In this document: positions 1 to 43,270 of the stretch, one piece after another | Layout of the letters: every line of letters begins with the position of its first letter | How positions within the stretch are numbered: position 1 is the first letter of the stretch | Origin: Hygrocybe punicea | Taxonomy: Eukaryota > Basidiomycota > Agaricomycetes > Agaricales > Hygrophoraceae | Assembly: GCA_963556145.1 (NCBI GenBank) | Contig: OY744462.1 | Coordinates: 6,944,001 to 7,008,000, forward strand | Direction: 5' to 3' | Length of the DNA stretch: 64,000 bases | Notes under the pieces: model-generated | Told to the model about the DNA's origin: nothing | Databases searched by the model: none | Seen by the model: the letters and a program-made list of their open reading frames with translations, nothing else | Made by a program: the position numbers and the translations under genes

Positions 1-3000
1 ACTCGATGCCTGTTTGTTGTATGTCAATCGCTGCATAGCGTTCAACCTCTTTGACTCGCTTTAACCAATCGGTAGAGCTTGGAGTGTTTCTGTACCTGGA
101 TCGGAGGGCCAGAATTCTTGATTTTGGGAGGATTGTACCGCCGAACATTGCAAATCGACCAAAAGAAGACTCTCCCTCTCTCGGGCCATCATCAACCTCT
201 TCTCCAAGAGCATCCTCGATCTCTATTGATGTCGACAATTGGGGTCTCTGGGTTGGAGCCTGGGATGTGGCAGTGACAGAATCTACATCAATCTCGTCAT
301 CCTGTTCTGGAGGGAGATTCACAAGCAAACGCCCAAAGGGAGAAAGGATATCTGTTCCATCTGCCGAATCGATATTTTTTAGCAAAAAGGGATATTCGGC
401 TTCAACCAAACGGTGTCCTCGTTTCCAGCAGGTAAGGAGAGTCACATTTTGGACACAAACATTGCCTCGCCATGAGGCAGGTTTTATGTGATCAGCATTG
501 TTAGGAAGTTGGGTGGAATCTCTTGTGATGGCTGGCAGCTTCAAACGTTGAGGTGCCCTGTCCCAGTGGGGATACTTGGCAAGTATATTGGAAACTTCAG
601 TCGTCCCTGTGAGCCGTGAGGCAAGTTGCAGAATGTCAAGGTTAGCGTCGTTGCCAACCATTGTGTGGAGAATGCCAAAGAGTTCTTCTAAGCGATCGGT
701 GCCTAGCAGCATGAGCCAGAATTGGCCATGTGGATCGTTGACTTTAGTTTTCGCAACACAAAAATATATGTTTTTTATCATGATCATGATATCGGTGTAA
801 AGGAGTGTCGGGAGAAACTCCTTCTGAGCCTTGATGTATAACACGAGAGATGAGCCGCAGCACTGAGATGTTCAAGTTGTTCGGAGAGAGAAAGATCTAT
901 GCAGAGATAGAGAAAAACCACATGATAAAGAAGCTTGCCAAGTGTTCGAAGAGCTTCTCGTGCCGCTAGAAAGTTTGGCCTTGACTCTGAAGAAGATGCC
1001 GGAGGAATGGACCAAATGTCCTTTAGCAGGTCAAATGCCAGTTTGACATCTTGCTTGTCGTCTGGATTGAATATTGCATGGATGTGGGCAGAGGACATGT
1101 CCATTGACTGGAGATGTCTGTGAATTATTGCTGGCGTAACTTGAAAGCCCATGATGACGACACTGCGCTCTCGAAGAAGGAGGTTTCGGAGACGTTTAAA
1201 AATGTGCTTATAATCTTTATCAGCAGTCAAGTCATCGTCTCCCACGTGAAGATCCATGAGGCGGAGGGAGTTTAGTAGGGGATAAATGTTTGAATCGTGG
1301 GCCAGCTTGCGTTTAAAGGTCAAAATGACAAGTGATGTTCCACGTCCTGTTTCACCATCTGAAGCTATGGAGACAATACGGAGATTGGTGGCAGTCCTCT
1401 TTGTTTCGGCAGCTTCAATCATGGTTTCGATGACATCCCTGGCATGCTCTTTCCCGGACTCACGTTTGCAGTCTCCAGAGATAAGAATCAGTCGTGCTGC
1501 ATAGACACGAGTATCAGCGCCTAGTATTCCGAGAGCCCCAACAGTTGCCTATTAATAGTATTATAGAAGAAACACTTCAAATTCAGTGTGTTCGGAGCTA
1601 TGTAATCGTGATCCAGCTTACCTCACTTGCATGGTGCACTGATTGGTCGTCCAAGCTCTTGAACAATTCCTCCATGTCGGCTTCACTGTTGAACTCCAGG
1701 CTAATATTATTCGCATGTTCCCTGCATATGCCGAGGAAGCGATTTGTCTTGTGGTCCCATTGAATTCATTTCTCTGTTGCAATCTCGTCAATCATCAAAA
1801 CTTGATGCGCAACCTTCTTTGACTGCAAGACCTCCCTGATGCCTTCAAAGCAGGCTTCTATGTTTTTCTGAATTTCATCAACTTGGGGAGTTGAATGGGA
1901 AGGGATGATTGGAGGCATAGTGGAACGGTTTCGAAGTGTGGTCATCCCAGGAAGTCCCAATGAACGGTGGCCAATTTGGGCAACTCGGTTACCACCCAGC
2001 CGCCAGAGTAGAATTCCACGTAAGTCATCCTCCTCAGTAAAACCCTTTGGATGGTATACTCCACGAGCAGCATTTTCGTATAAATTTAGAAGCCCTCGTA
2101 TTCCCCTTTTCTGCTTTAAACCCACCTTCAGAAGCCTATCAACACGTTCATAATCCCCACTCCCAATTGCGTTCACAAATCTCTTGTGGTCTGAAAGTAC
2201 TGACGCCTTGCCCAGCATCAGTCTCGCATGATTCAGTCCACGTAGATGGAAGGCATCAATTTGTTTGTTCTTTCGACCCAAAAGATTGATCATCCCCCCA
2301 AATCCATGGTAGGCATATTTTGAATTCTCATGAACACCATCCTCAATGTGATGGAGAATGCCTTGGAGAGTTGTATTGGAAGGGAGATTGTTGCATGGTT
2401 CACAGTTTCTGTGTTCCTTCACCGGCTGGTTTGTGCATGCGCATGCCCGAAGTGTCAAGATACTGTTGACAACCGAGTAGTCCCATGGGAGACGCATTTG
2501 GTCATGGAGAGTGAATGGGTAGGTGGAATGTGGGGTTTTTCCAGTTGGAAATTGAACAACAAAACCTTGGCAGGCTGATGTACAGCTGGCATCGATGTCG
2601 ATGGGTTCCAAATCAAGTTGATGGGGCTGGGCGATTTGATGGGGCTGGGCGATTTGTCGACAGACATCAACACCAGAAGGCTCCCATTCGCCATCTATTG
2701 TATGGGTTGAAATATGCGCTGGTGGGGTTTCTGCAAACATTGCCTTGATTTCATCAATCAGAAATTCAAGTTTCGGCTGCATTAGGCCAATGTCTATGCC
2801 TCGTTCCACCACAAAGTACTCAATAAATTGAAAAAAACCATCTAAACTTCGTTTGCAGTGGCGCACAGACTCATTCCTCTTTGTCTCCAGGCCCCATCCA
2901 AACACCTTGTGGAAGAGCGGGTTCAAGGTGTCTTCCCAAAGCTCATCTGGGCCCACACTGACATCGGCGAATGTTGTAGGGTCCTTGGCGAAAACAGCAA

Positions 3001-3495
3001 GGACATCTTCATCTGTATTCTCCTCTCCTGTATCTGGGACTTGCTGGATCAGCTGTTGTAGTTGCTGAAGGAGTTGTGGGCAGACGGCAGAACAAGTGGA
3101 TCTAGGAGTGGGTGCAGCCTGAGAGCAGTTGATGACTGGCGTCACCACTGGCGGTGGGCCTGGTATTGAAGATGCATGGACAGCGGGTGGAGCTATGACA
3201 GTACGTGCCACTTTCGGAGCCTTCTGTTGCATGAAGGTAACAATAGATCCATCCTTTTTATTGGAAGTGTCGTGATCCCTCCTAGCCTTCACGTCTTTGC
3301 AGACCTTGGTTCCTTGGTGTAATTTCTCAAGGTTAGCTGATCCACCGGGGCCGCATTTGATGCGGGTGCCGCAATCAGGGCAAGTTGCATAGCCATTGGC
3401 ATCAACTTTAATTGCCTAGGAGAATGAATGCAATTGTAAACGCACAGACCATTCTCGATTCAATAAATACAGGTTTTACATACCTCTTGCGCCAT
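1..3495 (-). pseudogene. Degenerate zinc-finger transposase-like gene, 3' end cut by window edge
   Basis: Three exons on the minus strand. Exon 1 is only MAQE (3495-3484), then a 68-bp GT-AG intron (3416-3483). Exon 2 (3415-1622) opens with a zinc-finger-like CPDCGTRIKC...GTKVC motif, followed by a Pro-rich linker and a long conserved region ending in VLMIDEIATEK. A 73-bp intron (1549-1621) precedes exon 3, which contains HIKPASWRGN and leaves the window at base 1. Two lesions are visible: an in-frame TGA at 1766-1768 where the same frame continues as IQWDHKTN (probably a former CGA Arg codon), and a one-base frameshift near 848-850 between AAHLS and LVLYIKAQKEF. From memory this is a multicopy family in mushroom genomes. 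Its mobile nature, and the Asp of LMIDE as an RNase-H-like catalytic residue, are inference. Confidence 0.72.
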
Positions 3496-37349: not shown

Positions 37350-37669
37350 TAGGGAAATGCAGGGATAAGGGTAAATCCTTTTCAGCAGGTATCCGTACTC
37401 TTAAGAGTACGAGTACGGATACAGATTCTCGTATCCGTGGGCTTCAAAATGAGCCGGAGATTATCCAAAACGGTCAAGAATTGACTGAGATAGAGACTAA
37501 ACATTGATTGGACTCTATCTCAGTCAATTCTTGACCATTTCAGGTGATCTCCGGCTCATTTTGATCGCGAATCCGTGGGTAAAATCCGTGGATATTGCAT
37601 CCGTATCTGTGGGGAGTACGAGTACGGATACAGACAAATGTATCCTGGGATTACCCCTGCATTTCCCTA
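37350..37669. mobile_element. 320-bp hAT-type MITE with central hairpin
   Basis: TIR TAGGGAAATGCAGGG at the left and its inverse CCCTGCATTTCCCTA at the right, with a perfect 8-bp duplication ATTGTTGA (37342-37349 and 37670-37677). The word AGTACGAGTACGGATACAGA occurs near both ends in direct orientation (about 37407 and 37616). Confidence 0.93.
37444..37564. repeat. 52-bp-arm hairpin at the centre of the MITE
   Basis: Arms 37444-37495 and 37513-37564 pair, starting TCAAAATGAGCCGG and ending CCGGCTCATTTTGA, with a 17-bp loop. A mismatched patch lies near 37464-37474. Confidence 0.9.
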
Positions 37670-38286
37670 ATTGTTGATGGTGTGTTGTTGTCATCATTTG
37701 TTGCTCAGGCTGTTCAGTGTCCTTATTGACACTGTTGATTAGCAGACATCGGAGGGTGATAAGGTGATTTCAGCAATTCTCTTGGTGTCACATGACATGG
37801 AAGGTTATGGTATCTGGGCCAGTAGGTGGGCATACCTTAGTCCCGGCCATGTTCCTCATTGTTGTCGTTGTTTTGTGCATCATTGTTTTTGTGTGTATGG
37901 AAGCGATATTTTGGCCAAGTCCATCCTTTGGCTCTGTTTGCCTTGGTTGAAGTTTTCACTGATAACTACTTGAAGTTTCACTGATAATGACTTGAAAGGC
38001 TTCCTGCTCCCACTTTCCCCTGCTAACTCCCTTCCTCTCACTGTCTCCCCTGCCACATGCATGCACACACCCTGGGTGGGGGTAATGCATTAGTAAGTAC
38101 CACAACTGTTGTTTTCTACTGATTACACATAATGGGCAATAGATACACATCCACTCCAATAGCAATGGCAATGGCAGCTTTGTGGTGGCAGCACCATACC
38201 TCCAGTGAGTACTCCACCTTCACCTCCACTTTTTACGAGTTACAGTGATGGCAATGAGGTTGACCATGGGATATCACAGATAGCGA

Positions 38287-38899
38287 TGTGACGGCGAGTT
38301 CGGTTGTAGACCCGAATGGGAATCTACGAAAGTGGTGATCAGCTAAGAAGTGATCAGAGGAGTTTAGTGTCTATAGTCTAGTCAATCCAACCCGAATCCA
38401 GGGTTCTGGATCAGAGGGGAAGTGAAGGGAGTGGAGTACGAAGACTAATGAGATGATACGAAGCGAGGACTAAGAAATAGAACTGAAGGGATGCAATACG
38501 ATAGGATGTAATATGATATGGTGGGATATGATAATATATATGTTGTAGTATAAGGGTACATCTTTTATACTACTGGGAGAGATCCTGTGCTGTAGTAACT
38601 ATGTACTACAAGCGAAGGCTGTAACTGATGGTAGAGAGGTGGAGCGGAGTATAGGGGGAATGGTGCTATGTACTAAGTAACGGGAAACGAAGATATATCA
38701 TATGTAACTATATACGTACTGATTCCGGGTCGTTAGAGACATCGCATCTTGAGTATGAACGATTCCGGAGGCGGAATCCGGAGCGGAATCGACGGAAAAG
38801 ACCGGAAACGGGCGGAATCGATGATACGTGAATGGGAATGGACAAGGACAAAGTGGGATATGAAGAGGATTCGGGTCCAGAGGGCCCGGGGCCTCTACA
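38287..38899. repeat. Left LTR, 613 bp
   Basis: Starts TGTGACGGCGAGTTCGG and ends GGGGCCTCTACA. Nearly identical to the right LTR. Its inner edge faces the passenger gene, whose ATG is about 330 bp away. Confidence 0.95.
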
Positions 38900-39231
38900 T
38901 CCGGTCAGGACTCAGATAGAGACCATCCCTGGTCGATCCATACGAAATAATGAAGATACCGGGGTCGTGGGAATAAATGAGCGGAGGCGATGTCGAAAAT
39001 GGGCGGAAACGAGAGTACAATGTGAGCGGAGTCGAAGCCGGCGGGTATCGAAGCATCGGGAAGCAGTGGTCCGGAGCTACTAAAAGAGGGTGGGGCGAAA
39101 CGGCTGGATAAAGGAACAACGGTCACGTGACGGGGCAACAAATACAAACAAGAAAACTTTTCAACGTGACTTTCAACCATCTCGACAACAACCTCAACGA
39201 GCCCAACAAACCCAACAAACACCAACACCAA

Positions 39232-40700
39232 ATGTCGACGGAATACAACAAATTCCTCAATACTCTCATTGCAGAAACGCGGCAAGATTTTGAGAGCGCC
39301 GTAGCTGAGTTACTAGAAGTCGACGCGGCCGGAATCGATATCGTACGCAACGGATTCGAGAACGAAGCACAGCAATGGGTGGTGAGACGACGACGGGCCA
39401 TGGTAAGAGTTCCCGTTCCCGTAAACGGCACAGACTAACGATACCCGGCAGCGGAACTACAGAGGAATCTTGGTGGAAATCCGGGACAACGGAATCGACG
39501 TGACGGAACCGAAGGATTTCTCGATGGGCGGAGAGATGGTGGTGGAGGTCGAGGAGTGGTTGCGGAGCTGGGAGGACTACGAACGGGAACGGAAAGAGGC
39601 GAGGCGTCGGGAAGCTGTACGGTTGCAGGAGGAAAAGGAGGAGGAAGTGAGGAGGCAACAGGTTGAGGAGGCGGAAAGGATCGAGCGGCAACGGGCGGAG
39701 GAATCGCGTCAGTACGAAGAGGAGATGAATAGGAGGGCGGAAGCGGAGAAGCGGATCGAGGAGGCGGAAAGGGCGAAGGCGGCAGAGGCAGCAAAAGGGG
39801 AGGCTGATGCAGCCACGGAAAGGGACCGGGAGGAAACCGCACAAACCAGCCATCATGGAAGCGAGGACGAGGAGGGCACCTGGTCCGATCAACAACTACA
39901 AAAATACGAGAGGCTTCAAGTACTGAACGCAATCAAAAACAAAAAGCTCAACCGGGATAAGAGGGTCACCCGGGACGACGAAACCGTTCACGGGGACTAC
40001 AACAGCGGCAACGATTTCTCGAATGTGAGCGGGAACGAGGACGCGGAACCGAAGGGAAAGATTCCGGGGGTAAGTGATATCTCGCGGACTCGTATATCCA
40101 TTGTGCCTAACTAATCCGTAGTACATGCAGTCGTTCCGGATCCGGCAATGCGATGCGTGCGTGACCGCCAATGCAGTTTGTCGCGGAATCGAGGGGTACG
40201 CGTGCGATCGGTGCAAAAGACTTAAACGACGTTGCGGATTGTCGACGAAGGGACCGGCCACCGGATCTGGAAAAGCGGAAAGGAAAGGGAAGGCGAAGGC
40301 GGGTAGTCCGAAGAGAAAGGTCGTCGCGAAGAAGATACCAAAGCCCGTGAGGAAGCCTAGGTTGCAGACCGGAGAGGCGTCGATGAGTAAGCGGACGTTG
40401 ACCGACGTCGAACCGGATACGGAATCGGAGCGGGACAAAGGGAGACGAGGAAATCCATTCAAGCACCCGCGGATCGGAGCCGGAATCAACGACCACGTCT
40501 GGGCAGTACGCAAGATGGCGACGGAAACGCAAAGGGAGATATCGACGATCGCGGACGGCCTCTCTGAATATGTCACGGAGGTCCACACCAAGCTAACCCG
40601 TTGGACGCAGGAGCTAAATCGACTACGCGCGAACCAGGCCCATATCCTGGGTCAACTCAACCTAATCGACACGAAACTCGATGAAAGGAGAAGGGAGTAA
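39232..40700 (+). CDS. Passenger gene: coiled-coil protein with a cysteine cluster, 455 residues
   Basis: Exons 39232-39402, 39452-40069 and 40122-40700, with introns of 49 bp (39403-39451, branch site CTAAC) and 52 bp (40070-40121). Both are phase 0 with GTAAG donors. The ATG sits in ACCAAATGTC after a CAAC-rich leader typical of a 5' UTR. The protein starts MSTEYNKFLNTLIAETRQDF. Its central part is a long charged Glu/Arg coiled coil (about 75-160). Exon 3 has CDAC-x6-C-x8-CDRC-x6-C (RLKRRC), spacing reminiscent of a Zn2Cys6 fungal regulator cluster, then a basic tail PKRKVVAKKIPKPVRK and a C-terminal coiled coil. It lies entirely inside the retrotransposon, opposite to gag and 80 bp from gag's 3' end. 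The introns splice only in the plus direction, so it needs its own promoter or an LTR promoter. Function unknown; DNA or nucleic-acid binding is inference. Confidence 0.8.
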
Positions 40701-40779
40701 AAGGGGAATGGACGAAAAGGGAAGGGAAAGCGGAACGTCGAACAATGTATATAAAATAAAAATAGAGTATATAATAAAA

Positions 40780-42459
40780 CTATAAACGGAAAAGAGGGAA
40801 ACGGAACGACGAGATAAGATAGCCGGAATCTGGGGGTCGAGGAGGAGGACAGGACCGGAATACAACGGAAACGAAACAGGTCCGGAACGAGCGGGAAACA
40901 ATGGAAACTAGAAATGGAAACGAAAATATAAATAAATGAGAAACGGGAGCGGAAACGGAAAGCGGAACGGAAGACGAAAACGCAAAAATAGGAGACGGAA
41001 ACGGGTCTACATCCCCACAAGAGTTTCTGAAAGAAGGTCGGAGGCGGAACGACGAGAGGAGGCGGAGAACTTCTTGCAAATATTCGAGCGAGGTGTCGAG
41101 GGGGCGGAGGTCCAGAATGCGATCACAAAGTAGAATGAAGACGGAAACGAGGAATAAAATAAAATCGAGAACCGGAGTGCCGACACCAACACGATCCCAT
41201 ATAACGGGTGTGCCGCGTGACGGGTCTAAAAATGACAGGGTGCCCCAAGCGGGCGAAGACAGAACCGACAACGATACGGGAGCGGAAACGATGAGGGGAA
41301 CCGGGAACGAAGGGGTCGACATAACGGAATCGGAACCGGAATCGAAATCAAATAAAAGGGGTGGAATGGAGTCCGGAATGGGAATGGGTACGGAATACTC
41401 AACCAAAGTCAACGGAATCTCGATAGACGGTGACGGAGGACAATATGGCGGCGATATCGGGGACGGAATGTCTTTTTCTGGAGAGTCCGAGGACAATGGG
41501 AGCGGGTCCGGTACGAGTTCGTGGACGGAAAGCGGAGGGGTCGAATCCGGAGACGACGTGGACGAAATAGGAAATGAATTGGATAAATCGGTGACTGGCA
41601 TCGATAAATCGGGAATGGGATCGGACGGGGACGACACGGGACTGGACGACAATACCTGTAAACAAATGACGGTCTTGACGGGCACCGGAATGGACAGGGA
41701 CGGAATATGCGATAAAGAGGACGGAGTATACGTAGGACCGGAATGAACGTGGGCGACGGAACGAATGACGGTGGGCGGGATCGAGGTCAGAATCGGGACC
41801 AGAGATGACAAAGCTATGATGGGTGGGGGACTGGGACCGGAATCGGGACTAGAGATGGTAACGGCAAGGGAAGGGGATTTCGGAACGGAGCGATAACCGG
41901 AAAGTAGGAATAAGGCGGCATCGTGGAAAACATCGAGCGGGTACGGATCGTCGTGGTAATGGTCGGGAAGAAGGTAATGGAGGCGTTCTTCAATACGTAG
42001 ACGAAGGTCTGAGTCGAATCCGTTGGCGAAGTATGTGTTCTGTTGCTTATCCGTTAGACGGCCATTGTCAAACAAGACACCGGAAATGCGTATGAAATCC
42101 CGGAAATATTGTCCTAAGTCCACTTTGTTCTCTATACCGTAAGCCGATTGTCGTCGCGTAAGTTGATCGAGATCCGAGATCGTATACCGGATGGAATTCG
42201 TAGCACCGGGATAAAAGTCGAAGACGGCACGTCGGAAAGCAATGAAGTCCTTTGCTGAAGCGGCGGGTAGGGTAGACCAAAGTTCGTAATCGTCGTTATC
42301 GAGGTACCGGAGTGTGTAGCGAATCTTCATAGCGTCCGTGAGTCCACAGTCGGAGCCGAGCATGTCAATTTCGTCAAAGAAGCGGGGAAGGTCGTGTTCG
42401 TCACCATGAAACGTCGGGGCTGAACGATCACCTCGGAGAGGCATCAATCCGTACGTCAT
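40780..42459 (-). CDS. Gag-like protein of the LTR element, up to 559 residues
   Basis: The N-terminal ~190 residues match the retrotransposon gag layout: APTFHGDEHDLPRFFDEID, GLTDAMKIRYTLRYLDNDD, LWSTLPAASAKDFIAFRRAV, FYPGATNSIRYT, then DLGQYFRDFIRISG and a YFANGFD segment. The rest is Ser/Pro-rich low complexity with a hydrophobic stretch FILFLVSVFILLC. There is no CCHC zinc knuckle or protease motif. It starts about 195 bp inside the right LTR, which would be the 5' LTR on this strand. The 3' half may be open by composition only, so the true stop is the end of the open frame at 40780. The absence of pol makes the element non-autonomous. Confidence 0.75.
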   Translation of the reverse strand: MTYGLMPLRGDRSAPTFHGDEHDLPRFFDEIDMLGSDCGLTDAMKIRYTLRYLDNDDYELWSTLPAASAKDFIAFRRAVFDFYPGATNSIRYTISDLDQLTRRQSAYGIENKVDLGQYFRDFIRISGVLFDNGRLTDKQQNTYFANGFDSDLRLRIEERLHYLLPDHYHDDPYPLDVFHDAALFLLSGYRSVPKSPSLAVTISSPDSGPSPPPIIALSSLVPILTSIPPTVIRSVAHVHSGPTYTPSSLSHIPSLSIPVPVKTVICLQVLSSSPVSSPSDPIPDLSMPVTDLSNSFPISSTSSPDSTPPLSVHELVPDPLPLSSDSPEKDIPSPISPPYCPPSPSIEIPLTLVEYSVPIPIPDSIPPLLFDFDSGSDSVMSTPSFPVPLIVSAPVSLSVLSSPAWGTLSFLDPSRGTPVIWDRVGVGTPVLDFILFLVSVFILLCDRILDLRPLDTSLEYLQEVLRLLSSFRLRPSFRNSCGDVDPFPSPIFAFSSSVPLSVSAPVSHLFIFSFPFLVSIVSRSFRTCFVSVVFRSCPPPRPPDSGYLISSFRFPLFRL

Positions 42460-42634
42460 ATCGGGAATGTCTAAATCGGGATGCGGGTCGGAAAGCGGGT
42501 CGGGTCGAGGAGGTTCGAGGTCGAGGTCGAAGGCGTAAGCGGAACTAAATAACTAGAGTCGGGTAGAAGAGGGAAACGTCATGAAAGTCAAAGCCGACCG
42601 TGGGGAGGGTATGAAAAGACAAAAGAAATAAACT

Positions 42635-42651
42635 CCTCGCGGTGGGCTCCA
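42635..42651 (-). other. Candidate primer-binding site of the LTR element
   Basis: On the minus strand, two bases after the right LTR, the sequence reads TGGAGCCCACCGCGAGG. The TGG start complements a tRNA CCA end. The priming tRNA is not identified. Confidence 0.5.
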
Positions 42652-42653
42652 GT

Positions 42654-43266
42654 TGTGACGGCGAGTTCGGTTGTAGACCCGAATGGGAATCTACGAAAGT
42701 GGTGATCAGCTAAGAAGTGATCAGAGGAGTTTAGTGTCTATAGTCTAGTCAATCCAACCCGAATCCAGGGTTCTGGATCAGAGGGGAAGTGAAGGGAGTG
42801 GAGTACGAAGACTAATGAGATGATACGAAGCGAGGACTAAGAAATAGAACTGAAGGGATGCAATACGATAGGATGTAATATGATATGGTGGGATATGATA
42901 ATATATATGTTGTAGTATAAGGGTACATCTTTTATACTACTGGGAGAGATCCTGTGCTGTAGTAACTATGTACTACAAGCGAAGGCTGTAACTGATGGTA
43001 GAGAGGTGGAGCGGAGTATAGGGGGAATGGTGCTATGTACTAAGTAACGGGAAACGAAGATATATCATATGTAACTATATACGTACTGATTCCGGGTCGT
43101 TAGAGACATCGCATCTTGAGTATGAACGATTCCGGAGGCGGAATCCGGAGCGGAATCGACAGAAAAGACCGGAAACGGGCAGAATCGATGATACGTGAAT
43201 GGGAATGGACAAGGACAAAGTGGGATATGAAGAGGATTCGGGTCCAGAGGGCCCGGGGCCTCTACA
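42654..43266. repeat. Right LTR, 613 bp
   Basis: Matches 38287-38899 except for two visible G-to-A changes (GACGGAA to GACAGAA and GGGCGG to GGGCAG), both at CpG. Confidence 0.95.
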
Positions 43267-43270
43267 GCGA

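Follow-up and report, generated by a model that had tools for sequence, protein, structure and literature searches.

In this work, we analysed a 64,000-nt stretch of the Hygrocybe punicea genome (assembly GCA_963556145.1, contig OY744462.1, positions 6,944,001 to 7,008,000), hereafter the window, and focused on the long terminal repeat (LTR) retrotransposon that occupies its positions 38287-43266. We consider it probable, if far from certain, that this element is a gag-only Ty3/Gypsy derivative supplied with pol in trans, and that the gene carried antisense to gag, which is older than the gag-only form, encodes a nuclear DNA-binding regulator. The antisense gene is under purifying selection and, as judged from the genomic copies, it belongs to the lineage and predates the loss of pol.

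The element is flanked on both sides by the 4-bp target-site duplication GCGA of the NCGN type (38283-38286 and 43267-43270). Its LTRs, 613 bp each, begin with TG, end with CA and are oriented along the minus strand, the right copy (42654-43266) being the 5′ LTR and the left copy (38287-38899) the 3′ LTR in the gag-sense direction. A recent insertion is probable, since the LTRs are identical at all but 2 of 613 positions, and at each of these two the right copy has CA in place of CG. The primer-binding site (PBS) TGGAGCCCACCG (42640-42651) lies on the minus strand 2 nt inward of the right LTR, and the minus strand is therefore the sense strand of the element. The gag open reading frame (ORF) of 559 amino acids (aa) occupies positions 40780-42459 of this strand, and no other ORF of at least 300 aa was found within the element. 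With LTRs, target-site duplication, PBS and gag present and pol absent, the element has a structure of the TR-GAG type, so that the gag-only LTR retrotransposon proposed in the preliminary description was borne out.

The antisense gene is located on the plus strand and consists of exon 1 (39232-39402, 171 nt, 57 codons), supported by its splice borders and the ratio of nonsynonymous to synonymous substitution rates (dN/dS), the highly charged exon 2 (39452-40069, 618 nt, 206 codons), and exon 3 (40122-40700, 579 nt, 192 codons plus the stop), supported by dN/dS, cysteine spacing and a structure model; the predicted product comprises 455 aa. The two phase-0 GT..AG introns recognized earlier, of 49 bp (39403-39451) and 52 bp (40070-40121), are retained in the copies. 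Splice borders and in-frame exon lengths were kept in 19/19 copies for exon 1, 19/19 for exon 2 and 20/20 for exon 3, the window included, indicating that the gene is not a product of chance. Exon 2 varies from 537 to 813 nt, its length being a multiple of 3 in all 19 copies, and a stretch of it (39665-39772, plus strand) is repeated in some of them. Single internal stops occurred in one exon 1, two exons 2 and one exon 3, i.e., in 4 of the 58 exons passing a length filter, which excluded the rearranged exon 2 of locus L027 (13 stops) and those copies of exon 3 that insertions had interrupted (L009, L020/L021); for some loci, not all exons entered this comparison. At locus L018 (C40), intron 1 harbours an insert of 6.7 kb that has short inverted ends, and the exons are intact.

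The genome search covered 92.2 Mb in 42 contigs, with at most 40 or at most 150 candidates scored per search, and the resulting counts are lower bounds. It revealed 892 candidates for the LTR (40 scored), 694 for gag (150 scored) and 502 for exon 3 (150 scored). Among the exon 3 matches listed, 115/150 had a gag 1.0-3.5 kb away on the other strand (at about 1.7-1.8 kb in 97 cases), which places the antisense gene between gag and the 3′ LTR in most copies; 35/150 exon 3 and 35/150 gag matches listed were unpaired, and the partners of the former may be unlisted or the copies broken. Exon 3 was free of stops in 104 of the 150 matches listed, and 59 of the 61 stops found there were TGA.

Purifying selection across other full-length copies had been set beforehand as the test of the antisense gene. 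The dN/dS values were obtained by the Nei-Gojobori method over non-independent pairs; the larger antisense and gag sets hold different copies, and the set of close copies serves as the matched comparison. In the close copies, dN/dS ranged from 0.19 to 0.36, being 0.29 for exon 1, 0.358 for exon 2 and 0.187 for exon 3, as against 0.273 for the N-terminal and 0.70 for the C-terminal part of gag, so that exon 3 is under tighter constraint than the gag N-terminal domain. This agrees with the earlier suggestion that the product may serve the element. The larger set gave 0.33, 0.26 and 0.166 for exons 1, 2 and 3, respectively, with a value as low as 0.073 for residues 1-45 of exon 3, which include the cysteines. 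When exon 3 was read in the +1 and +2 plus-strand frames, dN/dS rose to 1.47 and 1.29. With each distinct variant counted once, the observed count of synonymous variants was matched by 0/1000 relocations for exon 2, 0/1000 for exon 3 and 29/1000 for exon 1.

As to gag, clear constraint is confined to its N-terminal domain (41860-42459, minus strand), which is helical in its second half according to the model and homologous to the gag of the autonomous relative described below: dN/dS was 0.24 for this domain in the larger set (31 sequences, the window copy counted twice), while the C-terminal part, with 0.69 in the same set, shows little constraint (the C-terminal ratio being taken from 11 of 13 aligned sequences). 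The CCHC knuckle motif is absent both from the window gag and from the longest gag-strand frame of 12 copies. The capsid reading of gag rests on its homology to other gags, because the fold search gave no significant match (best E 1.1, the capsid of human T-cell leukemia virus type 1, HTLV-1) and the structure model is only partly confident, with a mean predicted local distance difference test score (pLDDT) of 62. The preliminary description had the two genes ending 80 bp apart; the distance in the window is 79 bp, and this arrangement is peculiar to some copies, given that 5 of 12 other copies examined, two of which are fragments lacking the start of gag, have a gag frame of 847-860 aa that continues across the antisense gene.

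The autonomous relative was reached through P0001, a metagenome gag that is 37% identical to the window gag and runs on into a zinc knuckle. A genome search with its knuckle part gave 319 candidates, 150 of which were scored, including one at C33:689187. This knuckle-gag lies upstream of an integrase at C33:693074 (PF17921, 74.4 bits, a 1257-aa frame on the gag strand), which in turn is located downstream of the reverse transcriptase (RT) piece at C33:690400-692000, pol being read in pieces within a copy itself read as L065-L068. The RT of the L068 ORF matches the Ty3 chains 4ol8 (E 3.9e-6) and 7q5b, Ty3-G Gag-Pol (E 1.8e-5); the Pfam scan of this ORF yielded no RT match at E<=1. The copy has a 794-bp LTR and the target-site duplication CCGC on both sides, and its gag is 44.6% identical to that of the window over 195 aa, with a zinc knuckle in addition.

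The autonomous copy also carries an antisense gene, situated after the integrase region and before the 3′ LTR, which aligns with the window gene in two blocks (28% identity over 174 positions, E 6e-14, and 30% over 132 positions, E 6e-12). Its introns, of 54 and 52 bp, are likewise in phase 0 and at matching places: intron 1 falls between AQQWVVRRRRAM and RNYRGI in the window gene and between AQQWLSGRKKAL and RAYNGI in the relative, and intron 2 directly precedes the cysteine exon in both, with identical cysteine spacing. Of the integrase matches listed, 89/150 fall into the class of the relative, a split based solely on which range of the profile was matched and made with the same script as the pairing. 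In 83 of these 89, an antisense gene follows 0.5-4 kb downstream on the other strand, in 81 cases at about 1.4 or 1.8 kb; none of the other 61 has a listed antisense match, and more distant antisense genes may exist there. Gag, integrase and the antisense gene were found together in 69/150 listed knuckle-gag matches. The search with the exon 3 of the relative gave 482 candidates, and the 150 scored were 89-100% identical to it. Since the autonomous lineage has a homolog with both introns matching, the antisense gene must be older than the gag-only form.

The gag-only and autonomous elements have in common a 19-nt block containing the PBS, identical in both, a block beside the 3′ LTR with 20/21 nt the same (38916-38936, minus strand, in the window), and the LTR start TGTAGAGG, which in both elements is followed by a near-palindrome of differing sequence, perhaps an end structure. 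For the gag-only family (L029-L058, two of these 30 entries being the window copy), an NCGN target was read at 26 of 29 distinct LTR ends; the flanking window contains CG at a rate of 0.043 per base. The three remaining ends read CTGT, GCAG and CCAC, with TG or CA replacing CG, as expected if CG mutated later. The gag-only family targets CpG-centred sites almost exclusively, and the CCGC target of the single autonomous copy for which both ends were read is of the same kind. The shared cis blocks and the NCGN target would fit one integration machinery for both elements. A nested Gypsy element in L020 was also considered as a helper and rejected, its gag being unrelated by BLASTP (E 0.15) and its flanking matches sharing an overlap of 5 bp instead of 4.

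Which RNA strand is copied can be read from the introns of the antisense gene. The unspliced intron 1/exon 2 junction occurs 149 times in the genome (up to 3 mismatches; 0 for the reversed-pattern control) vs. 0 occurrences of the spliced exon 1/exon 2 junction, intron 1 alone being examined in this way. The copies therefore descend from gag-sense RNA in which the antisense introns are retained, and the family spreads via gag-sense, LTR-to-LTR RNA, just as the preliminary description had anticipated. A tandem array of about 4334-bp period with five gag and five exon 3 matches was noticed at C35:1851867-1871540; such arrays are expected from recombination between LTRs. In exon 3, 116 transition variants were counted at 158 CpG sites vs. 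39 at 179 other C/G sites, an excess in keeping with methylation and silencing of the copies and a reason to consider an anti-silencing role.

Exon 3 encodes the cluster CX2CX6CX7CX2CX6C followed by a basic linker and a 73-residue C-terminal helix, mostly with pLDDT of 96-98 in a single-sequence model, the cysteine part of which is not confident. Zn(II)2Cys6 factors have six cysteines spaced CX2CX6C..CX2CX6C, and this spacing was found identical in 24 of 25 sequences, the only other one (P0005) being a fragment without that region; the usual order is reversed here, the strongly basic half being the second one. A search with an exon 3 profile that included the autonomous homolog retrieved four metagenome proteins from the Joint Genome Institute, 86, 76, 43 and 38% identical (the last match covering just 13% of the query), which show that exon 3 has relatives outside this genome. 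The same profile found nothing significant in PDB. In the LTR, the densest 70-bp stretch of CGG/CCG triplets (43109-43178), near the sense start, holds 9 of them against 4.6 expected (max-cluster P 0.002, exploratory test); it could serve as a candidate site where the six-cysteine protein binds and is offered as a lead.

Taken together, these data allow us to propose the following scenario. The element would be a non-autonomous, gag-only member of Ty3/Gypsy that lost pol and the gag zinc knuckle, and it is probably mobilised by the enzymes of autonomous relatives in the same genome, to judge by the common PBS block, 3′ block, LTR start and NCGN target. It would propagate through gag-sense, LTR-to-LTR RNA with the antisense introns left in. 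The antisense product is most likely a nuclear, coiled-coil, DNA-binding regulator of the element's own LTRs, acting perhaps on transcription or counter to silencing, and the gag-only form may have kept its gene by selection because the protein works best on its own family. More tentatively, and with appreciable doubt, we suggest that a family-specific coiled-coil six-cysteine regulator binds its own LTRs to drive or unsilence them and, like Gag, has to be supplied by the element itself. If so, it would be a retrotransposon counterpart of HBZ or TRP28, and a stripped-down element would reveal which genes cannot be borrowed. An element seemingly borrowing its enzymes, yet keeping gag and the antisense gene under selection, amounts to a natural deletion experiment, and this retention speaks for an antisense product that is needed and acts poorly in trans.

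Several observations weigh against the proposed regulator and the supply of pol in trans. In the matched close copies, the constraint on exons 1 and 2 does not exceed that on the gag N-terminal domain; taken by itself, the deficit of stop codons does not reach significance (stops were as few in 498, 134 and 88 of 1000 trials for exons 1, 2 and 3); and three exon 3 copies of the autonomous lineage, two of them picked for divergence, gave dN/dS of 0.30-0.68 with few changes, a weaker signal. A search with the full 455-aa protein found no homolog. The Zn_clus match (PF00172) stays below the gathering cut-off of 21 bits, with 15.2 bits for the window gene, 12.0 for the autonomous form, 14.1 for P0002 and 11.5 for P0003, P0004 giving no match. 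DNA binding is suggested by the basic composition and the spacing of the cysteines, CGG/CCG triplets are not enriched in total number over the LTR (P 0.107), and the antisense transcript with its splicing is a prediction from genomic sequence. As for pol in trans, the role of the autonomous lineage is deduced from the shared cis sequences, the remaining LTR sequence being hardly alignable between the two elements.

Among the other explanations, the one that carries some weight, unlikely as we find it, is that the antisense protein acts on RNA, Gag or nuclear entry, for example by replacing the lost knuckle, instead of on LTR transcription. The window gag and the 12 copies lack the CCHC motif that both P0001 and the autonomous gag possess, and the gag-only form retains a basic six-cysteine protein, as this explanation would have it; the autonomous lineage, however, has the knuckle and the antisense protein side by side, so that the replacement cannot be a simple one. 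It is even less credible, and in our opinion very improbable, that the antisense transcript itself is functional, as in silencing or double-stranded RNA control, with the ORF incidental. Spliced antisense transcripts of Blumeria elements are described as non-coding, without meaningful peptides (PMC10648671), and the many CpG transitions in the copies would agree with such a role, whereas the codon-level purifying selection, the in-frame length changes and the kept cysteine spacing speak for a protein.

The view of the gene as a "passenger" or "captured cargo", put forward in the preliminary description, had to be given up: that one gag-only element acquired a host Zn-cluster-like gene now appears at best a slight chance, marginally smaller than that of a functional transcript. 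The introns, typical of host genes, and the weak resemblance to fungal Zn_clus might be taken in its favour, yet the autonomous lineage has the intron-matched homolog at nearly all listed integrases of its class, on which ground a recent host capture was rejected, and the selection on the gene acts at the codon level. An older capture by the common ancestor of both forms may have taken place, no search having been aimed at host homologs outside the elements. Least probable of all, to a degree that we regard as negligible, is that the antisense frame is a by-product of a real gag extension of about 850 aa. Such an extended frame does cross the antisense gene in 5 of 12 other copies, and over exon 3 the opposite-strand frame with coinciding wobble positions has a dN/dS of 0.24; however, between the N-terminal domain and the overlap, gag shows 0.69-0.70 in its own frame, a result on which the extension was rejected as a real gene, and the plus-strand reading has splice sites, an open frame, the cysteine spacing and a homolog with matching introns.

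Elsewhere in the window, an inverted repeat lies to the left of the element at 37444-37564 (60-nt arms, 87% complementary, 1-nt spacer), and a minus-strand ORF of 508 aa occupies 1766-3292, which may resemble fungal DNA transposon genes.

The proposed regulator and its gag-only carrier can be compared with several known systems. Plant TR-GAG elements possess LTRs, a PBS and gag only, an antisense gene being no part of their definition; the window element is like them in LTRs, PBS and gag and unlike them in bearing the antisense gene. The HBZ gene of HTLV-1 is spliced, and its product is of the basic leucine zipper type. The antisense gene brtn of the fungal element Boty/BcGypsy1 was reportedly described by Zhao et al. 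in 2011. As is suggested for the window gene, HBZ is an antisense-encoded nuclear regulatory protein of a retroelement (PMC11963269), though both protein and host are unrelated to ours. Among plant elements, Retand (PMC11963269), maize Grande (gene23) and rice RIRE2 (PMC7264820) are known to carry an antisense gene in the interval from pol to the 3′ LTR, the function of such genes being stated as not known (PMC7264820). Retand resembles the window lineage in belonging to Ty3/Gypsy, in its antisense ORFs and non-autonomous members, and also in the tandem repeats present in about half of its elements, which we count as a likeness; it differs in its plant hosts and in the TRP28 domain, and the accessible text mentions neither introns nor a six-cysteine cluster (PMC11963269). 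In our Pfam scan of exons 2 and 3, the TRP28 domain PF04195 was not among the matches at E<=1. Grande and RIRE2 share the position of the antisense ORF, and for gene23 its own promoter and a nuclear product are reported; these are plant elements, and introns are not mentioned in the accessible text (PMC7264820).

The closest parallel in layout is fungal. Boty/BcGypsy1 of Botrytis cinerea has an extra antisense gene, brtn (PMC7264820, PMC8365987, PMC4227169), which PMC7264820 locates between pol and the 3′ LTR, and a Monilinia transcript similar to BRTN is on record (PMC5987419), so that the statement that no fungal family of such a layout was known was too strong. Unlike the window element, Boty has a single gag-pol gene with a chromodomain and a 5-bp target-site duplication at one solo LTR (PMC4227169); brtn and the window gene were compared by description, not by sequence. 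Within the titles and abstract openings of open-licence papers, we found neither a spliced six-cysteine antisense gene of a fungal element nor a six-cysteine antisense gene kept in a gag-only form. Antisense genes at this place are known from plant and fungal retrotransposons, and what looks new is that a gag-only derivative has kept one that is spliced and encodes six cysteines in a cluster.

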